From: a bacterium
Lineage (GTDB): Bacteria > ARS69
DNA: 9,430 bases
Assembly (NCBI GenBank): GCA_025774865.1
Contig: JALGZO010000333.1
Location: forward strand, 1 to 9,430
Direction: 5' to 3'
Below are positions 1,126-9,430 of the stretch, piece by piece. Within the stretch, counting starts at the first letter, position 1. Each line of letters begins with the position of its first letter. The translations under genes and the position numbers were made by a program. The notes beneath the pieces were generated by a model, which was not told where the DNA came from, searched no databases, and was given only the letters and a program-made list of their open reading frames with translations.

Positions 1126-2903
1126 GTGAGCGGCCAGAACATCGGGATCAGGAGCGTCGCGGCCGCCCAGAGCAGGATGTTCAAGGGCAACCCGAATCGG
1201 AAGAAGTCACCGAACGTGTAGCCGCCCGGTCCCATCACGATCATGTTCGTCTGGTACCCGACGGGTGTGGCGAAGCTCGCCGACGCGCCGTAGGCGATGG
1301 CCACCAGGAAGGGGCGAGGGTCGAGCCCCATGGTGTCGGAAACGATGAACGCGAGTGGCGCCATGAGGACCGCGGTCGCGTTGTTCGAGATGAACGCGGA
1401 GAAGATGCTGGTGAGCAGATAGAAACCCGACAAGACAGCGAGCGGGCCGAGTTGACCGAGGACTCCCATTGCGCCGTCGACGATCAACTGGGCGAGCCCG
1501 GTCTTCTCCAGACCGAGTCCCAGCGGAATCGAGCCGGCGATCAGAAAGAGCACGGGCGCATCGAGCGCCGCCAGGGCATCCCGCGGGCGCAGGCAACTCG
1601 TCGCCATGAGAAGGCCCGCTCCCCCGACCGCCAGTACCGACAGCGGCGCCACCTTCATCGTCGCCAGAACGATGACCGCCAGCAGCGTGCCCAGCGCCAG
1701 CGGGGCGCGGGTCCGCTGCACGATCAGCTGGTCTACCCCTTCGACCACCATCACGGAACCGGTCTCGCGGATCGCGTCCAGGCCGCGCCGATCGGCTTGC
1801 AGCAGAAGAACGTCACCACCGCGAAGCCGCATCCCCCTCAGGTAGTACCGATGCTGCCGGCCGTGACGTTGCACGGCCATGATCTTGACGCCGTACAGGC
1901 GGTTCAAGCCGAGACCCGCCACCTGCCGCCCCACGAACGGCGAATCCGGCAGCACGACGGCCTCCGCGATCGCCAGATCCATCGACCGGACCTGCACACG
2001 CTTCTCGTCTTCGACGACGCTCGCGATCTTGACGCCGTGCCGATCGATGAATTCCGTGATTCCTTGCGGCGTCCCCTCGACGATCAGAGAGTCCTGCGGC
2101 TCGATCGCCTTCTCGAGGGCGGTGACCGCGAAGATGACTTGTTCGCCTCGTACGATCTCGAGAAGGCGGACGTCTTTCTGATCGAGGGGAAGTACTTCCT
2201 TCAGAATTCGCCCGACAAGCGGCGCGTCGGCTCCGACAATGAGCTCCGTGACGAACTTCGCTCCTCGATCCTCGGGAAGCATGGCCGAGAGAGGTGTCCG
2301 ATCGGGCAGGAGCCGCTTGTACATCAGGAAGATGTAAAGAAATCCGAGAAGGAAGTAACAGACGCCGAGGGGAGCAAACTCGAAGATGTCGAAGCCGGGT
2401 CCTCCGTGGCTCCGGTAAAGCTGATCGACGAGCAGGTTCGTGCTCGTGCCGATGACCGTGCACGTCCCACCGAGAATCGCGAAGTAGCTCACCGGCAGCA
2501 AGAGCTTCGACGGTTTCATGTCGCCGTGTCGGCTCAGGGCCAGCACGACCGGGATCATCATGACGACGACGGGCGTGTTGTTCAGGAAAGCGCTCGCGAA
2601 CCCGACGACGAGCGCCAGCAAGATGATGAGCCGGGACATCTCGTTGCGGGCTCGGGTCCGGAGCAAGCCCACCAGAAAGTCCAGCGCTCCCGTCTTGATG
2701 AGCGCGGCACTCAGGATGAACATCGCGGCGATCGTGATCGTGGCCTGATTCGAGAATCCGGAGAGCGCTTCCTGCGGCGTCAAGATCCCCGACAGGCAGA
2801 GCGCTGCGATCGTCAGAACCGAGGCGGCCTCGAACGGAAGGGCTCGGGTCGCGAACAGGACGACGGCGACCACGAGAATGAAGGCGAACAGAACTGACTC
2901 CAC
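1122..2903 (-). CDS. SLC13-family (DASS) permease with two RCK_C domains
   Basis: Predicted inner-membrane anion or dicarboxylate transporter of the SLC13/DASS group, 593 residues. Two hydrophobic halves (about 1-200 and 400-590) flank a soluble insert carrying two RCK_C (TrkA-C) domains, at about 215-297 and 305-388. Motifs seen: FLNNTP (106-111) and the matching SNNATAV (506-512), the paired Asn-rich hairpin signatures of the two inverted halves; GTSTNL (152-157) and ATPVGYQTNMIV (545-556); and the family-typical tail DFFRFGLPLN (566-575). The same permease-RCK_C-permease layout is known in YfbS-like proteins and in some sulfate transporters, so sulfate is a candidate substrate, but nothing here fixes it. 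RCK_C domains usually bind small ligands and gate transport. The start is GTG at 2903, chosen because a GAGGAGGG Shine-Dalgarno sits just upstream. It is the first gene of an operon with the kinase, whose start overlaps this stop. Confidence 0.93.
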   Translation of the reverse strand: MESVLFAFILVVAVVLFATRALPFEAASVLTIAALCLSGILTPQEALSGFSNQATITIAAMFILSAALIKTGALDFLVGLLRTRARNEMSRLIILLALVVGFASAFLNNTPVVVMMIPVVLALSRHGDMKPSKLLLPVSYFAILGGTCTVIGTSTNLLVDQLYRSHGGPGFDIFEFAPLGVCYFLLGFLYIFLMYKRLLPDRTPLSAMLPEDRGAKFVTELIVGADAPLVGRILKEVLPLDQKDVRLLEIVRGEQVIFAVTALEKAIEPQDSLIVEGTPQGITEFIDRHGVKIASVVEDEKRVQVRSMDLAIAEAVVLPDSPFVGRQVAGLGLNRLYGVKIMAVQRHGRQHRYYLRGMRLRGGDVLLLQADRRGLDAIRETGSVMVVEGVDQLIVQRTRAPLALGTLLAVIVLATMKVAPLSVLAVGGAGLLMATSCLRPRDALAALDAPVLFLIAGSIPLGLGLEKTGLAQLIVDGAMGVLGQLGPLAVLSGFYLLTSIFSAFISNNATAVLMAPLAFIVSDTMGLDPRPFLVAIAYGASASFATPVGYQTNMIVMGPGGYTFGDFFRFGLPLNILLWAAATLLIPMFWPLT

Positions 2904-2906
2904 GGA

Positions 2907-2914
2907 CCCTCCTC
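2907..2914 (-). promoter_or_regulatory. Ribosome binding site of the SLC13 permease
   Basis: On the minus strand GAGGAGGG precedes the GTG at 2903 by three bases (four from the GGAGG core). It decides the start of the permease, because no ATG is available nearby. Confidence 0.7.
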
Positions 2915-2920
2915 GATTGT

Positions 2921-2941
2921 CCCGCCAGAATGGGTGGCGGG
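2921..2941. promoter_or_regulatory. Inverted repeat in the permease leader (possible operator or hairpin)
   Basis: CCCGCCA (2921-2927) and TGGCGGG (2935-2941) form a perfect 7-bp inverted repeat around a 7-base spacer. It lies 18 bases upstream of the permease start, in the gap between two divergent genes. As RNA it would form a hairpin beside the ribosome binding site; as DNA it could be an operator. Its internal sequence GCCAGAATGG recurs at 3069-3078, nearer to the divergent gene. A regulatory role is inference; in GC-rich DNA a short stem may arise by chance. Confidence 0.3.
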
Positions 2942-3111
2942 CTCCGTTTGCGCAACCGAGGAGAGCGGGGGAACCTCGGGTCTCTTCTCGGGGGTGCGGT
3001 CAGCCGATGAATGAAGCGAACCCGCTCGATGGACGCTTTCCGTGGTCTTGCATTCCCCGGAGCGGGGGGCCAGAATGGCGGCCACCCGAGTGGGGGGGAG
3101 GAAGAGAGGGC

Positions 3112-3768
3112 ATGGACGTGATTCTCTTGCCTGGTGGCGTCCTGAGAGCCTCCGTGTGGGATCCCGAGCTGCGTGACACGACGATGCGCGACGTGTCGGA
3201 GGATCTGCCGTACTTCTTGCGGAGCGCCGTTCGGTTGCACGACGAGGTCACCCTCCGAGATCTTCTCATGCTCGCCGATCGCCATCGTGAGTTCCTCTTG
3301 CCTCTCTTCACCGATCTTCTCGACGACTTCGTCGATGAGGTGAAGCGGCCGGCGTCCGGCGACGAGCTCTGCGAGCTCGACTACCTGGAGATCTGCTGGG
3401 AGTGCTACTCGGAAGGGAAGCGCTTCGACCTCCAGCCGGCGCTCGTCGGCCGGAATCACGAGGATCCCCAGGTCTACTCCGTCGAGGCGGTTCCCACGAA
3501 CGCGATGGGGCACCTGGCGGTGTTGCTTCGGACCGACTTCATGTTGCGACTCCCCACCGTCAGGCCGGGCCGCGGCGAGATCGTGACCGCGGACGAAGCG
3601 AACCTCCCGGTGCGCCGGGAGCTCCGCCGCGATTTCCTCCTCTTCGACGTGTTCGACGCCGTCCTGGCCGAGATCACCGTACACGGCGACCCGATGGAAC
3701 GGGATCGCTGGTGGCGGGAGATCGGACGCCGCGAGCTGGATCGCACCGAAGGCGCGGACGACGAATAG
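3112..3768 (+). CDS. Conserved-looking hypothetical acidic protein, 218 aa
   Basis: I do not recognise a family. The product is 218 residues, acidic and soluble, with no signal peptide or membrane segment. The first half (about 30-80) is probably helical and rich in Leu, Asp and Glu. The middle has a Trp/Cys cluster around ICWECYSEG (94-102). The C-terminal part is rich in Arg and Asp (RRELRRDF at 168-175, then DRWWREIGRRE at 198-208). The frame is open further upstream to 2878, but that would overlap the divergent permease. The ATG at 3112 is preferred because GGAGG lies at 3097-3101 within a purine-rich stretch. It is transcribed divergently from the permease-kinase operon and in the same direction as the secreted-protein genes, about 200 bases upstream of them. 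Whether it belongs with either set is not clear. That it is coding is likely from codon-like structure and the good start; function is unknown. Confidence 0.7.
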   Translation: MDVILLPGGVLRASVWDPELRDTTMRDVSEDLPYFLRSAVRLHDEVTLRDLLMLADRHREFLLPLFTDLLDDFVDEVKRPASGDELCELDYLEICWECYSEGKRFDLQPALVGRNHEDPQVYSVEAVPTNAMGHLAVLLRTDFMLRLPTVRPGRGEIVTADEANLPVRRELRRDFLLFDVFDAVLAEITVHGDPMERDRWWREIGRRELDRTEGADDE

Positions 3769-3969: not shown

Positions 3970-4668
3970 ATGAAGATGCCGTTCTTGCTTTTGCTCGCGC
4001 TCTTTCTCGTTGCGTTGGCGCTCCTGCCCGCCGACGTCTTCGCTCAATCCTCCGGAACCGTGAACATCACCGGTCGCGTCGATAAGGCGGCCGCCATGCG
4101 CTGGTGGACCTTCAGTGCAATCAACACCGAGATCGGTACGAACGCTCCCGCCGTCCAGAACGGCCCCCTGGACTTCACCCTCGACGTCTCCGACGTCGCG
4201 GCGGGAAACAACAACAACACGTACGCGGGCGGCACCGTTCAGCTGATGCTTCGGAGCAATACGACGTTCAATCTCGACGCCCAGGTCACGGCATCGTCGG
4301 GCTTCGGTGCCGCCGCCGCCGGCGACGCGGCGCTCTCGGACGTCGGTTTCGGCATCGGAGGACTGGCCAACTCGGGCGCCAAGGTCTTCGGCGATCCGGC
4401 CACCGGCTCCACGATCACCGCGGCCTTCGCTAACGATCCGAGCGCGGCGGCGAAGGACGTGGACGAAGAGCCCATTTTCACGTCGACGCTGGCCGACATC
4501 GCAGCGTCCACTCAGGTACTGACCGGACCGCGCATCTCGAACCGCGGCGGCATCGGCTCCCCGAACAACGGGATGCTGGTCGACTGCACCTACGCGATCG
4601 GTCCGCAGTTCTACACGCCGGCGAACCCGATTTCCGCCACCGTGACCTTCACGCTGGCGACGCCGTAG
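3970..4668 (+). CDS. Secreted beta-rich protein, putative appendage subunit 1
   Basis: A 232-residue exported protein. The signal peptide is clear: MKM, then a Leu/Ala-rich core (about 4-19), with cleavage expected after DVFA (25), leaving a mature start at QSSG. The mature part alternates short polar and hydrophobic stretches typical of beta structure, is rich in Ala, Gly, Thr and Asn (a run of four Asn at 80-83), and has a single Cys (206). Motifs DVGFGIGG (124-131), DEEPIF (165-170) and GPQFYTP (211-217) recur, in order and with similar spacing, in the next gene, so the two are paralogues. The ATG at 3970 is preferred over the longer open frame because it starts the signal peptide and AGGAAGAG lies at 3953-3960. 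A terminator-like hairpin follows it. With a PapD-like chaperone and a barrel gene nearby, a fimbrial or surface-layer subunit is the best inference; a general secreted protein remains possible. I could not match it to a named pilin family. Confidence 0.82.
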   Translation: MKMPFLLLLALFLVALALLPADVFAQSSGTVNITGRVDKAAAMRWWTFSAINTEIGTNAPAVQNGPLDFTLDVSDVAAGNNNNTYAGGTVQLMLRSNTTFNLDAQVTASSGFGAAAAGDAALSDVGFGIGGLANSGAKVFGDPATGSTITAAFANDPSAAAKDVDEEPIFTSTLADIAASTQVLTGPRISNRGGIGSPNNGMLVDCTYAIGPQFYTPANPISATVTFTLATP

Positions 4669-4671
4669 CGG

Positions 4672-5439
4672 ATGACCCGGGCTCTCGGTGTTTCCCCCCC
4701 ACGAGCACGGCGGGAGGAATGCGAAGAGAGGGGTGGCTCTCGCAGCCGCCTCTCTTTTTCGTTCCGGCCCTCCCGGCTTCGCCAGCATCCGCGGGGTGTC
4801 GCGATCACCGTGTTGCTCGCGTTCGGATCGTGGACCGTGGGTCCCTCGGCCGCCCCGGCGAGCGCCCAGGCGGAGTACCTGATCACGTTGACGGGGCCGC
4901 CGGGAGAGGCGCCACCGGATCTCGAGGCACAGGTCATCGACATCGAAGTCAGCCGGGAGGAGCTGGCTCGTCGCTCCGCGTTGCCCCCGTTCGACGTGGA
5001 CCTCGGGCAGCTCTCGCCGCTCAACCCGGCGAGCTACGCAACCGGCACGATCGTGATCCGGGTCTTCTCGCCATGGGGCTGGTTTCCACGGTACGAGATG
5101 CAGGCGCGCGCCCGTACCGCGGCCACCGGGGGCGGGAACTTCACGACCACGGACGTCGGCATGGGCGTTCTGAACGTGGTGGGCGCGAACCCGATCGTGA
5201 ACCCGAGCTTCGACTACGACCCCCGTCTTTCCCCGAAGAACATCGATGACGAGCCGCTCTTCCAGGGAACGGTGGGGACGCTTCCTCTGTCGCCGCCGCT
5301 CATGCTGCTCTACCGGACGCAGGGGTTCTACATGGGGGCTTGGAACTCGTTCCTCCTCGTGTTCGCGGTGGGTCCGCAGTTCTTCACGCCAACCGGAGCC
5401 GAGAGCATGCAGATTCAGCTCAGGTTGAGGCGGAGATGA
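4672..5439 (+). CDS. Secreted beta-rich protein, putative appendage subunit 2
   Basis: Paralogue of the preceding secreted protein, 255 residues if started at the ATG at 4672. The export signal is the hydrophobic run VAITVLLAF (43-51) after an Arg-rich stretch, with cleavage likely after ASA or AQA (65-67). Shared motifs: SYATGTIVIRV (121-131) against TYAGGTVQLML in subunit 1; DVGMGV (161-166); DDEPLF (192-197); GPQFFTP (234-240). The true start is uncertain. The first 40 residues are long and basic for a signal peptide, there is no good ribosome binding site before 4672, and a terminator-like hairpin falls inside this stretch. Yet the only standard in-frame starts closer to the hydrophobic core (GTG 4810, TTG 4813) would lose the positive end. 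The stop overlaps the chaperone start as ATGA, so these two are co-translated. A minor or adaptor subunit is a reasonable inference. Confidence 0.78.
   Translation: MTRALGVSPPRARREECEERGGSRSRLSFSFRPSRLRQHPRGVAITVLLAFGSWTVGPSAAPASAQAEYLITLTGPPGEAPPDLEAQVIDIEVSREELARRSALPPFDVDLGQLSPLNPASYATGTIVIRVFSPWGWFPRYEMQARARTAATGGGNFTTTDVGMGVLNVVGANPIVNPSFDYDPRLSPKNIDDEPLFQGTVGTLPLSPPLMLLYRTQGFYMGAWNSFLLVFAVGPQFFTPTGAESMQIQLRLRRR
4724..4759 (+). terminator. Intrinsic terminator or attenuator after subunit 1
   Basis: AAGAGAGG (4724-4731) pairs with CCTCTCTT (4749-4756). Inside, GGCT (4735-4738) pairs with AGCC (4744-4747) around a 5-base loop. A run of five T ends at 4759. It lies 55 bases after the stop of subunit 1 and overlaps the predicted N-terminal coding stretch of subunit 2. 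Partial termination here would give more subunit 1 than subunit 2 and chaperone. The stem and T-run are seen directly; activity is inference. Confidence 0.6.
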
Positions 5440-6290
5440 GGGCGGCGGCGGCCGTGATCGCGACCCTGTTCTTCGCCGCGACCGAAGCCGCGGCGGGCGA
5501 CGTGGCGATCGTGCCGAGCCTGGTGGAGCTGACGGTCCTGCCGGGGGAAGACCACACGACCGTCGTCCAGATCCACTACACGAAGGACGGGCCCGCCGAC
5601 ACACAACCGGTCCGGGTGATGCTCGATACGGAGAACTGGAGCATGAACACGGCCGGCGATCTCGCCTTCACGCCCGACGACGTCCCGTTCAGCGCGAAGC
5701 CTTGGATCGTGTTTTCGCCCGGGGAGGCGGAGATCGACCCGGGCGAAATGATGAACGTGCGCGTCTCGGTCATCGTTCCGGAGGGGACCGCGAGCGGGGA
5801 GTACCGCGCCGCGCTCATCGCGCAGCCGCGAACGCCGTTCCGTCCGCTCACGCAGGGCGACCGACGCCTCGAGCTCATCTGCCGTCTCGCGACCATCATC
5901 TACGTGCAGGTCCCGCCGGTGGTCGGCGACGTCGAGTTCGGGTCGCTCCAGGTCACGCGCCTGGACGGCCGGTACCACGTCGTCCCCCGCTTCCACAACC
6001 GCGGCGGCGCCCATCTTCGCGTATACGACTCGTTCGAGGTCCTGCCGCTGGCCGAAGCCCCCTCGACGACGACGTGCCAGCGCGAAGAGCAGGAGGCGGG
6101 GGTGATTCTACCGGGACGGTCGCGCCAGTTCGTTCACGTCTTGCCGTGCGACCTCGCCCCCGGTTGGTATCAGCTCATCTATCGAGCGGACGTCGGCAAG
6201 GACCTGCCGTTGCAGGAAGGGGAGACGACGTTCGTCATCTCTCCCAACGACGGCGATGCGCTCGCGTCGACGGAGCCGGCGGAGCCCTAG
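5436..6290 (+). CDS. PapD-like periplasmic chaperone (fimbrial chaperone family)
   Basis: A 284-residue exported protein. The signal peptide is MRAAAAVIATLFFAATEAAA with cleavage near residue 20. The mature N-domain (21-160) reads like a PapD/FimC immunoglobulin fold: IVPSLVELTVLPGE (25-38), the strand KPWIVFSPGEAEIDPGE (88-104) with the typical 'fSP...i.PGe' pattern, VRVSVIVP (108-115) and GEYRAALIA (121-129). A hydrophobic strand, RLATIIYVQVP (150-160), sits where the subunit-capping G1 strand of the family is found. A second beta domain follows (161-270), with Cys214 and Cys238 possibly bonded. Family members hold unfolded pilin subunits and pass them to an outer-membrane usher. It is longer than the usual 220-250 residues and I cannot confirm the Arg/Lys pair of the cleft. 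The ATG start overlaps the previous stop (ATGA), with GAGG at 5427-5430. Another Ig-fold secreted protein is the alternative. Confidence 0.68.
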   Translation: MRAAAAVIATLFFAATEAAAGDVAIVPSLVELTVLPGEDHTTVVQIHYTKDGPADTQPVRVMLDTENWSMNTAGDLAFTPDDVPFSAKPWIVFSPGEAEIDPGEMMNVRVSVIVPEGTASGEYRAALIAQPRTPFRPLTQGDRRLELICRLATIIYVQVPPVVGDVEFGSLQVTRLDGRYHVVPRFHNRGGAHLRVYDSFEVLPLAEAPSTTTCQREEQEAGVILPGRSRQFVHVLPCDLAPGWYQLIYRADVGKDLPLQEGETTFVISPNDGDALASTEPAEP

Positions 6291-6312
6291 GCGGGGCGCT
6301 TCACCCTTCCGT

Positions 6313-8667
6313 TCACGGACGAATGAAGATCTTCCGCTCGACCGCCCGCTCTCGGGGTCGGATCGGCACGTGCACGGGACGCGCGTCGCCCCCGCTGGCG
6401 AGCCGCACCTCGATCGGGTCGGGCGCCCGGTTCTCATCCGTCAACGAGGCCTGGTCGACAATGAGGGTGCGAACGCCCGGGGGAATGTCACTCAGCCGGT
6501 AGTAACCGTTCGAGTCCGAAACCGTGTCGCTGATGCCCGCGATCAGCACGTGAACATCGGGGAGGCCGGGTTCGTCTTCGTCGAGCTTCCCATCGCCGTC
6601 GAGATCGTGAAACACGAGCCCGTGGAGCGTGCGAGACACGCTCGTTCGCCAGTCGACGGCCACCGTTCTGAGGGCGGGGAGCAAGATCTCCCGGTCGATC
6701 GGATCGAGCAGCGCGAGGTCCGCACGGATCCCTTCTGCCGCGACCGAGATCGAATGCTCGCCGGCCCGGACTCCCTGGAACGAGTACTCGCCAGTCTCAC
6801 TCGTGACGGTCGACAAGTTTCCCCGGTCGAGCCGGACGCGGATGCCTTCGAGCGGCCGATCTCCCCGGCTGAACTCGCCATCCAGGTCGTGGTCGAGATA
6901 GATGCGGCCGCGGATCTGGGCCACGTGCGACTGCGGCCCGACGAAGAGCCCGGGGTTGGGTTTGCCCTCGTCGAAAAGGAACGTGCCGTGTCCGGCGAGG
7001 CGGTAGGAGTCGTGAGTCTGCTGTTGATCGTACGCGTAGTCGAGCTCGTGGGAGCCGCCGAAGTTCCAGGTGAGTCGCGCGTTTCCCAGGAAGTCGAGGC
7101 CTCTGTCCGAACGGGGGCGGCCCCAGCGACCGCCGACCGTCGCCTGGAGCCCCGCCTGTCCGGGCACCGGCTGCGTCCAGTAAACGGACACGCCCTGCAG
7201 ATGACCGCCCTGCCAGGTCCCCGTGAGCTGTCCTGACCCGAACCGCGAACGGGTGGAGAGGCCGGCGGTGAGGACGAGAGGGAATCCGTCGCGAATGGTC
7301 TCGCGCGTCATGACGAACCAGTCGCCCCGGCCGACCGAACCGCGCGCGTCGACGAGCAGATCCGTGCGGCGCTCCACGTCGCCGACGTCCGACGAATGAA
7401 TCGACGCGCTGACCGTGCGAAGACTCGTTCGACCGGGCGCGGCCGAGACGGAGCCGGTGGTCAGGTACTCGGTGGCTCCCTCGACGAGGTGGTGGTGGAT
7501 CGACTGCGACGCCGAGAGTGAGAGCCACCGGCTCGGTGCGGTCCGCCCGCCAACGGTCCAGAAGCGCGAGCTCCTTTCCGGGAACGTGAGCACGGGCAGG
7601 CGGAACTCGGTTCCGTAGTGCCCCAGCCGCGTATTGAAACGGACCTCGGGTGCGGCCAGCCACTCGAGACTGACCTCGGACGCGAGGCCGTGGCGTCGTC
7701 CTCGTCCCGGACCCTGGTCGAGGCCCGCCATCGTCTGCAGGCGTACTCTGGGCGATGCGAGTCGGTGCTGCGCCGCGAAGAGGACGCCGCCGGGCTCGTC
7801 CTGAGCGTCGCTCCTGATCGCCAGGCCCATACTGATCGCCTGCCCGGCGGGAGTTCCCGGCCGCGCGCCGGTGGTGTAGGCCGCGGATGCGACTTCCCCG
7901 TCGAAGCGCGGTCGGGAGGCCCGGCCCGGGATTCCGATCTGCCCCGCCACGAGCCGGCGGAAGTCCACGGAGAATCGGTGGCGCCCGCCGCGCCGCTCTC
8001 CCGCCCATTGCAGTCCGCGTCCGAACGTGTCGAACCACCGGAATTCGGGAGTGCCGCGCAGATCTCCCGCCGCCCACTCATTCCCGCGACCGTCGAGATA
8101 GCCGAAGTAATAGGAGCGAAGCACGGGGTCTTCCGAGTCAGCCGCCTGCGCGAGGACACTCGACCGGAAGAGCCCCCGGCCGAGGCGCGCCTTGTCGTCG
8201 ATCCGCAATCCGCCGTAGGTGCCTCCGAGGTCGTGGTTCGCGTAGCCGTGGTACTGCACTTCCTGCATCCCGAAGCGGGGGAGATCGGCCACGATCGGTG
8301 CTCCCGCGGCCCTCCGGCTGAGCAACGTGATCTCGTCCTCGCTCGGCGTGACGTACGCCGAGAGGTCGAAGAGGATCGTGACCAGCGAGAGTGGCAGTCG
8401 CAGGTCACTGACGTCGGAGCCCGTGGCGAGACCGGGAGTGAGCGCGAGGTCGAGTCCTTGATTGCGTCGGATCTCGCCGGAGTTCCCATCGTACTCGACT
8501 ATGGAGGCGTCCAGCGGGTTGGAAACGGAAACCGAGTTCGTCGCGGGCTCGAAGTAGAGCTCGGCGTGGAGCGCGCGGGCGATGGGAAGCGCCGGCAGAT
8601 ACCATTCGTGTCCGCGCTTCTCGGGGTAGACGATCGGGGTGAGGATCTCCTGCCGGTTCACCGTCAC
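6313..8667 (-). CDS. Usher-like outer-membrane barrel with tandem SdrD_B-like domains
   Basis: Large exported protein, 784 residues from the first standard start (GTG 8667) and longer if the signal-like extension upstream is used. Residues 1-120 resemble a stalk domain (copper amine oxidase N-terminal type): TVNRQEIL, WYLPALPIARAL (22-33), ELYFEPATNSVSV (36-48), then a second half, LRLPLSLVTILF (89-100). Residues about 130-580 are alternating polar/aromatic strands rich in Gly, Arg, Tyr and Trp, as in an outer-membrane barrel (for example AGDLRGTPEFRWFD at 200-213). Two SdrD_B or transthyretin-like modules follow, at about 585-645 and 681-745, with calcium-loop motifs DHDLDGEFSRGD (592-603) and DLDGDGKLDEDEPG (688-701). 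Classical ushers have a barrel plus two small C-terminal domains, so this architecture and the PapD-like neighbour suggest a diverged usher. It is convergent to the chaperone gene, ending 22 bases from it. The call as outer-membrane protein is solid; usher activity is inference. Confidence 0.75.
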   Translation of the reverse strand: MTVNRQEILTPIVYPEKRGHEWYLPALPIARALHAELYFEPATNSVSVSNPLDASIVEYDGNSGEIRRNQGLDLALTPGLATGSDVSDLRLPLSLVTILFDLSAYVTPSEDEITLLSRRAAGAPIVADLPRFGMQEVQYHGYANHDLGGTYGGLRIDDKARLGRGLFRSSVLAQAADSEDPVLRSYYFGYLDGRGNEWAAGDLRGTPEFRWFDTFGRGLQWAGERRGGRHRFSVDFRRLVAGQIGIPGRASRPRFDGEVASAAYTTGARPGTPAGQAISMGLAIRSDAQDEPGGVLFAAQHRLASPRVRLQTMAGLDQGPGRGRRHGLASEVSLEWLAAPEVRFNTRLGHYGTEFRLPVLTFPERSSRFWTVGGRTAPSRWLSLSASQSIHHHLVEGATEYLTTGSVSAAPGRTSLRTVSASIHSSDVGDVERRTDLLVDARGSVGRGDWFVMTRETIRDGFPLVLTAGLSTRSRFGSGQLTGTWQGGHLQGVSVYWTQPVPGQAGLQATVGGRWGRPRSDRGLDFLGNARLTWNFGGSHELDYAYDQQQTHDSYRLAGHGTFLFDEGKPNPGLFVGPQSHVAQIRGRIYLDHDLDGEFSRGDRPLEGIRVRLDRGNLSTVTSETGEYSFQGVRAGEHSISVAAEGIRADLALLDPIDREILLPALRTVAVDWRTSVSRTLHGLVFHDLDGDGKLDEDEPGLPDVHVLIAGISDTVSDSNGYYRLSDIPPGVRTLIVDQASLTDENRAPDPIEVRLASGGDARPVHVPIRPRERAVERKIFIRP

Positions 8668-8844
8668 GGTCGGCGCCGGGTCGGTGGCGGCGGCGGGGAC
8701 CGCCCCCGCCGCCGCGATCAGGACGAAGGCGGCAGTGCCACGAGCGAGGCCCGAAGCCGCGGCCAGCAGAACGGCCGCGGCCCCGAGGAACCGACGTGGG
8801 TGAGCGGTCGCGGCCGCACGGCGGCGAGCGGTCTCCTGATTCAG
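8668..8844 (-). other. In-frame signal-peptide-like extension of the barrel protein, no standard start
   Basis: Upstream of GTG 8667 the frame stays open back to a TGA at 8854-8856. It encodes an Arg-rich stretch (TARRRAAATAHPRRF) followed by hydrophobic runs (LGAAAVLLAAASGLA and TAAFVLIAAAGAVPAAA) and then TDPAPTVTV leading into the mature protein. This is what an outer-membrane protein needs for export. No in-frame ATG, GTG or TTG exists in it. The first plausible start is CTG at 8842-8844, with GAGG seven bases before it (8852-8855). Either a non-standard start is used or a nearby base error hides the real one. Confidence 0.5.
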
Positions 8845-8967: not shown

Positions 8968-9430
8968 TCAGCCTCTCGCGGCGCTCTCCCGGCGGATATC
9001 GATCACTCTCCGGGCCATGGCCTCGACCAAGCCTATCGAGAGATCGAAGTGATCTTCGAGAACGTCCAGGAGCGATTCCGTGTCGCCGCGCAGCGCCACC
9101 AGCGGGGTCTCCGTCACTGCCGTGTACCAGCGGGGGCGGGTCTTCGCCTCCAGACGGACCTCCGGAGTGGCGCGGGCCATCTGCGCGAGCGCGTCGAGGC
9201 TGGACCGCCCGAAGGGGGAGTCCGGTCGCCGGATCATGACGATCCGCTCCACGAGATCGAGAGGCCGGTCGGGGGGTTGGATCAGCCCTTCCATCGAAAC
9301 GAGGTGGGTTCCGGTCGGAATGCGCTGCCGGACCTCGAGTGTGCGCTTGGCGAGGGTCCGAATGAGACCGTGGATGATCGAGAAGTCGTCCTCGAGGATG
9401 TCGTGGAACGTGTCTCTCTCCAACTCCAGC
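8968..9430 (-). CDS. C-terminal part of a cyclic-nucleotide-binding-domain-like protein (5' end outside window)
   Basis: The frame is open through the right edge (reading LELERDTFHD at the boundary), so this is the C-terminal end of a longer protein rather than a gene starting at the TTG at 9423. Two similar helical tails are visible: RDTFHDILEDDFSIIHGLIRTLAKR near the start and DTESLLDVLEDHFDLSIGLVEAMARR near the end. Each resembles the helix that closes a cNMP-binding (Crp-like) beta-roll. Between them, LDLVERIVMIRRPDSPFGRS and LDALAQMARATPEVRL look like the start of a second such domain, and RWYTAVTETPLVALRGD like its last strand. The central beta-roll with the phosphate-binding cassette is absent, so this last domain cannot be a normal nucleotide sensor. 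Family members occur as regulators and as regulatory ends of membrane proteins with HEAT repeats; which applies here cannot be seen. It is transcribed toward the barrel gene, 112 bases away from the preceding stop. Confidence 0.65.
   Translation of the reverse strand, partial: LELERDTFHDILEDDFSIIHGLIRTLAKRTLEVRQRIPTGTHLVSMEGLIQPPDRPLDLVERIVMIRRPDSPFGRSSLDALAQMARATPEVRLEAKTRPRWYTAVTETPLVALRGDTESLLDVLEDHFDLSIGLVEAMARRVIDIRRESAARG

Follow-up and report, generated by a model that had tools for sequence, protein, structure and literature searches.

The window analysed here, a stretch of 9,430 nucleotides, contains four neighbouring genes that we judge, at somewhat better than even chances, to encode a chaperone–usher-like fibre-assembly pathway of a class absent from databases. 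Subunit A (positions 3970–4668) has an ATG start and a signal peptide, and is followed by its secreted paralogue, subunit B (4798–5439, in a frame open from ATG 4672), and by a two-domain chaperone predicted to be periplasmic (5436–6290), whose ATG overlaps the stop codon of B (ATGA). These three genes lie on the forward strand and face a convergent gene on the reverse strand (6313–8844), which encodes a probable outer-membrane barrel. The initial annotation had proposed a diverged appendage locus of four genes; the corresponding open reading frames were confirmed (that of B spanning 4672–5439), and all four genes are genuine and uninterrupted, and are conserved as a set. The pathway reading is built on this gene content, on its conservation, on the profile relationship of the chaperone and on the signature residues that the chaperone retains.

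Profile comparison relates the chaperone to the non-classical chaperones of chaperone–usher systems over both of its Ig-like domains. In pairwise hhalign comparisons, whose percentages are not those of database searches, a class profile of 28 chaperones aligned with EcpB/EcpE of Escherichia coli K-12 at 95.7% over 183 columns that extend into both domains; column-shuffled and reversed controls gave at most 1.4%. The same profile gave 31% with FimC, SfmC, ElfD and YcbF, and EcpB/EcpE gave 24% with these four proteins. No Pfam or NCBIfam model, including PapD_N, PapD_C and EcpB_C, matched the window chaperone above cut-off, and EcpB itself scores below the PapD_N cut-off. The earlier description of the protein as PapD-like is thus upheld as a relationship to non-classical chaperones, but not as a match to any PapD model above cut-off.

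According to a structural study (PMC4654587), the residues of EcpB conserved among non-classical chaperones are Pro60 and Arg89; Arg148 and Tyr169 provide additional anchors, and the donor positions lie at 111, 113, 115 and 117. Mapped through the hhalign alignment, with neighbouring motifs matched by eye, Pro60, Arg89 and Arg148 correspond to P95, R124 and R195 of the window chaperone, the donor positions to the alternating L145, L147, C149 and L151, and Tyr169 to V223. On this mapping, the window chaperone keeps three of four signature residues along with an alternating donor pattern; together with the EcpB/EcpE relationship, these features are among the reasons for reading the locus as a fibre-assembly pathway. 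The replacement of the tyrosine counts against that reading, as does the occurrence of Arg at the Arg89 (R124) site in only 5 of the 28 class chaperones; Pro is kept in 17. R150, an arginine beside the donor strand, is kept in 24 of the 28 and may act as an alternative anchor across the class. Extensions at the C terminus occur in some of the class chaperones (L034 2316–3725, L073 7662–8804 and L101 8793–10064); the one in L034 shows a SPOR-like match that is weak and below cut-off, and the other two look similar by eye.

The main rival explanation, unlikely in our estimate, is a surface complex that builds no fibre, in which the chaperone-like protein would remain permanently associated with A and B, as WxLIP does with WxL proteins in Gram-positives, and the barrel would serve as an outer-membrane anchor or pore displaying the proteins as a coat or adhesive. 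It ranks first among the alternatives because, among solved folds, the one nearest to the chaperone model is that of the Gram-positive WxLIP, a result that also counts against the pathway reading, since it is not that of a chaperone–usher chaperone. The AlphaFold model, computed from two sequences, shows two β-sandwich domains and a long strand (residues 144–157), but has low overall confidence (pLDDT 55.2) and is fairly confident in the second domain only; its best Foldseek matches are Enterococcus faecium WxLIP proteins (E 8.1e-7). A profile search of the PDB likewise placed WxLIP first (E 0.037), with EcpB behind (E 0.17), and some class chaperones show weak WxLIP_PGBD matches below cut-off. 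In WxL clusters, moreover, WxLIP is accompanied by two secreted proteins, one small and one large (PMC10599100), and the partners of WxLIP, like A and B, are secreted and β-rich. Against the surface complex, no WxL domain was found in A or B, the loci are of diderm type with a linked, probably outer-membrane barrel protein, the chaperone model is of low confidence, and the link between the chaperone and EcpB/EcpE is no less clear. PF06030 (WxLIP, DUF916/DUF3324) gave no match in the window chaperone at E values up to 1. VIA-align of the chaperone model lists RbmA and Ig-like domains of a generic kind from glycosidases and transglutaminases; no chaperone–usher chaperone is present among the matches listed, which is not counted as evidence against the relationship.

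Subunits A and B are, as judged by signal peptides and an hhalign score of 98.1% over 196 columns, secreted β-rich paralogues, in line with the initial annotation. A is probably the major subunit and B probably the minor one. Translation of B likely starts at GTG 4798, just ahead of the signal-peptide core, with ATG 4672 as the alternative. Neither subunit belongs to a pilin family that could be named, as had been claimed: no Pfam pilin model matched them, A has no profile match in Pfam, NCBIfam or the PDB, and B has none in Pfam or NCBIfam. An apparent hhalign match of A to FimA (60%) fell to 1.0% once signal peptides were removed and was rejected; comparison of A with FimA and EcpA is in any case uninformative, because FimA and EcpA, both of known type, likewise fail to detect one another. 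The AlphaFold model of A, based on an alignment of A and B homologues, matched mainly virus-capsid jelly-rolls and phage tail fibres (TM about 0.2–0.35), and with a pLDDT of 43.8 it is unusable, which counts against the pathway reading. Between A and B, a stem-loop (4690–4790, forward strand) recurs in the same place after A, with differing sequences, at all four A–B junctions examined. Since its energy was reached by 0 to 5 of 30 shuffles and a terminator scan did not flag it, a role as attenuator is suggested only tentatively.

The product of the convergent gene is probably an outer-membrane barrel, an identity suggested by its amphipathic pattern and by weak porin-type Pfam matches of its homologues. 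Residues 195–630 hold 22 candidate amphipathic strands, compared with 14.8 ± 2.8 in shuffled sequences, the maximum of which was also 22. No common start codon (ATG, GTG or TTG) lies upstream of its signal-peptide-like segment; GTG 8667, the only one available, would remove this segment, which is present in homologues too, and the gene perhaps starts at CTG 8844. The initial annotation was right that the termini are unusual: the C terminus carries two SdrD_B/CarboxypepD_reg domains (Pfam/NCBIfam), and the N termini of homologues vary, being Cu_amine_oxidN1-like or T2SS-T3SS_pil_N-like. A scan of viral contigs with the barrel gave no match.

No usher model matches the barrel, which counts against the pathway reading. 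PF00577, with PapC_N and PapC_C, has no match in the window barrel or the homologues tested, and TcfC and CooC_C, both found in EcpC, are likewise absent from them. However, EcpC, a true usher of E. coli, is itself missed by PF00577, so that absence of this model alone does not disqualify the barrel. EcpC also has a CarboxypepD_reg-like C-terminal domain at the same place as that of the window barrel, and none of the 20 genomes having the system contains a PF00577 usher or a PapD_N chaperone, which further argues for a pathway of this kind. Profile–profile comparison of the barrel with ushers found nothing and is uninformative, because the positive control, EcpC against FimD, failed too.

These observations bear on a second rival explanation, also unlikely and placed behind the surface complex, according to which the locus is a very diverged member of the alternative or archaic chaperone–usher families, with an ordinary 24-strand plugged usher missed by sequence models. 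In its signature residues the chaperone follows the non-classical branch, the barrel has usher-like length, and the alternative pathway of the E. coli common pilus (EcpA, EcpB/EcpE, EcpC and EcpD) shares with the window its set of pilin, chaperone and platform genes, besides the chaperone and C-terminal resemblances described above. On the other hand, the models that recognise alternative ushers miss the barrels tested, the subunits have no pilin match, and the tandem SdrD_B tail and variable N termini are unlike those of known ushers; the window also differs from the Ecp pathway in the replaced Tyr169 and in the convergent barrel of its clade. β- and γ-proteobacteria are given as the only hosts of the alternative pathway (PMC4654587), whereas the present class occurs outside these groups. 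With the archaic (σ) pathway of Csu type, the class shares the non-classical chaperone signature (Arg89 and Pro59; PMC4654587) and a wide phylogenetic spread, but differs in the missing PF00577 and PapD_N matches and in subunits unmatched by Pfam pilin models. Because the usher models of the classical and alternative families were tested and do not match, the locus is not assigned to either. The interpretation given in the initial annotation is partly supported, in that the chaperone has a profile relationship to non-classical chaperones, the four genes co-occur, and models of ushers, PapD or pilins recognise none of the proteins.

The source genome, a MAG, belongs to a little-known phylum represented by five genomes in the set compared, one relative being MAG HKST-UBA01. 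The convergent order is found in five genomes of two small phyla, namely the window's own, G001, G004, G368 and G388. Homologues of A show 58–74% identity in G001 and G004, which belong to the same family, and occur too in G368, G386 and G388; the barrel has homologues in G001, G004, G368 and G388. In G001 and G004, the A, B and chaperone set faces a convergent barrel across an HDOD gene, joined in G004 by a metallo-β-lactamase-fold gene (regions L024 1592–4387, L025 1–537 and L026 3–1088); the window has no counterpart. The G001 set is spread over two contigs, and since each ends in part of the HDOD gene, their junction is inferred. The A gene of G004 is divided between the ends of two contigs. 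In G368 and G388, members of the other small phylum, A, B and the chaperone share a strand and the barrel gene converges on them, in G388 again with other genes between, and G386 retains A, B and the chaperone as far as the contig end. The genes thus keep their relative orientation in other genera, and a lack of co-occurrence, which would have told against the initial annotation, can clearly be dismissed; an order kept across five genomes and two phyla argues for inheritance within the clade rather than accident. This conservation of the four-gene set is a further reason for the pathway reading. It also makes very improbable a third alternative, in which only A, B and the chaperone form a system and the barrel is a porin or anchored receptor unrelated to them, as the barrel's opposite strand in the window's clade and the intervening genes of G001, G004 and G388 might suggest: the convergent neighbourhood is preserved across both phyla, and in 17 of 18 relatives elsewhere the barrel adjoins the chaperone on the same strand.

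Outside the four genes, the ORF upstream of A (2878–3768, forward strand) has no Pfam or NCBIfam match, and a close homologue lies directly upstream of A in G004 (L027 3055–3777); G001 has a different gene there, TrkA-type channel-like. On the reverse strand, the window edge truncates a Ser/Thr protein kinase (1–1125) that has a membrane part at its N terminus and overlaps a CitMHS-type transporter with two TrkA_C domains (1122–2903). At the other end, 8968–9429 (reverse strand) holds the terminal part of an ORF that runs off the window, on the same strand as the barrel gene and upstream of it, with no Pfam match.

A survey with a profile of five chaperones found chaperone relatives in 51 of 386 genomes, representing 44 of 328 genera. 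Inspection of 20 neighbourhoods and two more in G002, comprising 25 chaperone ORFs, showed that 18 of these ORFs have, within 1 kb, a protein of about 770–1195 residues with the C-terminal SdrD_B/CarboxypepD_reg signature; in the distant cases, the barrel profile matches mainly this tail. Most loci include one to three small secreted ORFs with an alternating hydrophobic C terminus, and some operons encode a larger, tip-like protein with the same kind of C-terminal end, so that the class layout looks like an operon of pilin, tip protein, chaperone and platform. This linkage of chaperone and SdrD_B-tailed barrel, with pilin-like secreted ORFs alongside, also supports the pathway reading. The split gene order that had been pointed out in the window is thus real, but it is not typical: with 17 of the 18 linked proteins encoded on the strand of the chaperone and most relatives being single-strand operons, it is a local departure from an operon that is widespread. 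The same-family genome G002 has two further diverged loci (L033 and L034), in each of which pilin-like ORFs, the chaperone and the barrel share a strand; one of the barrels starts with a T2SS-T3SS_pil_N-like domain. Two genomes of one family (L075 8673–12201 and L078 7327–10842) have similar TPR-like tails at the ends of chaperone and barrel, as if added to both partners.

In the fibre-assembly pathway that we favour, A and B would enter the periplasm via Sec, where the interdomain cleft of the chaperone would hold the C terminus of each subunit and the alternating hydrophobic strand of its first domain would be lent to complete the subunit fold. The barrel, a candidate export platform by its position and co-occurrence, would expose its N-terminal domain and its two C-terminal Ig-like domains to the periplasm to receive chaperone–subunit complexes. 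Donor-strand exchange would then join the subunits through their N-terminal strands, and a polymer consisting mainly of A, with B in smaller amount, would be exported through the barrel to form a surface fibre.

More broadly, and as a possibility that we put forward tentatively, the class may represent a separate, very widespread chaperone–usher-like assembly in diderm groups without recognised chaperone–usher systems, with an SdrD_B/CarboxypepD_reg-capped barrel as its platform and a possible link between its chaperones and WxLIP. The open-access literature yielded no SdrD-capped usher and no description of this gene combination. Unannotated counterparts of the set are present in many distantly related bacterial groups. 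A cultured Deinococcus sp. (AB2017081) has chaperone, pilin-like protein and barrel consecutively on a plasmid (NZ_CP140100.1, about 12397–18082), where the annotation gives only hypothetical proteins and one carboxypeptidase-like regulatory domain protein, and this homologous locus opens the system to testing. If the pathway reading is true, this mode of fibre assembly would be older and broader than thought, and would have been overlooked by current gene finders.
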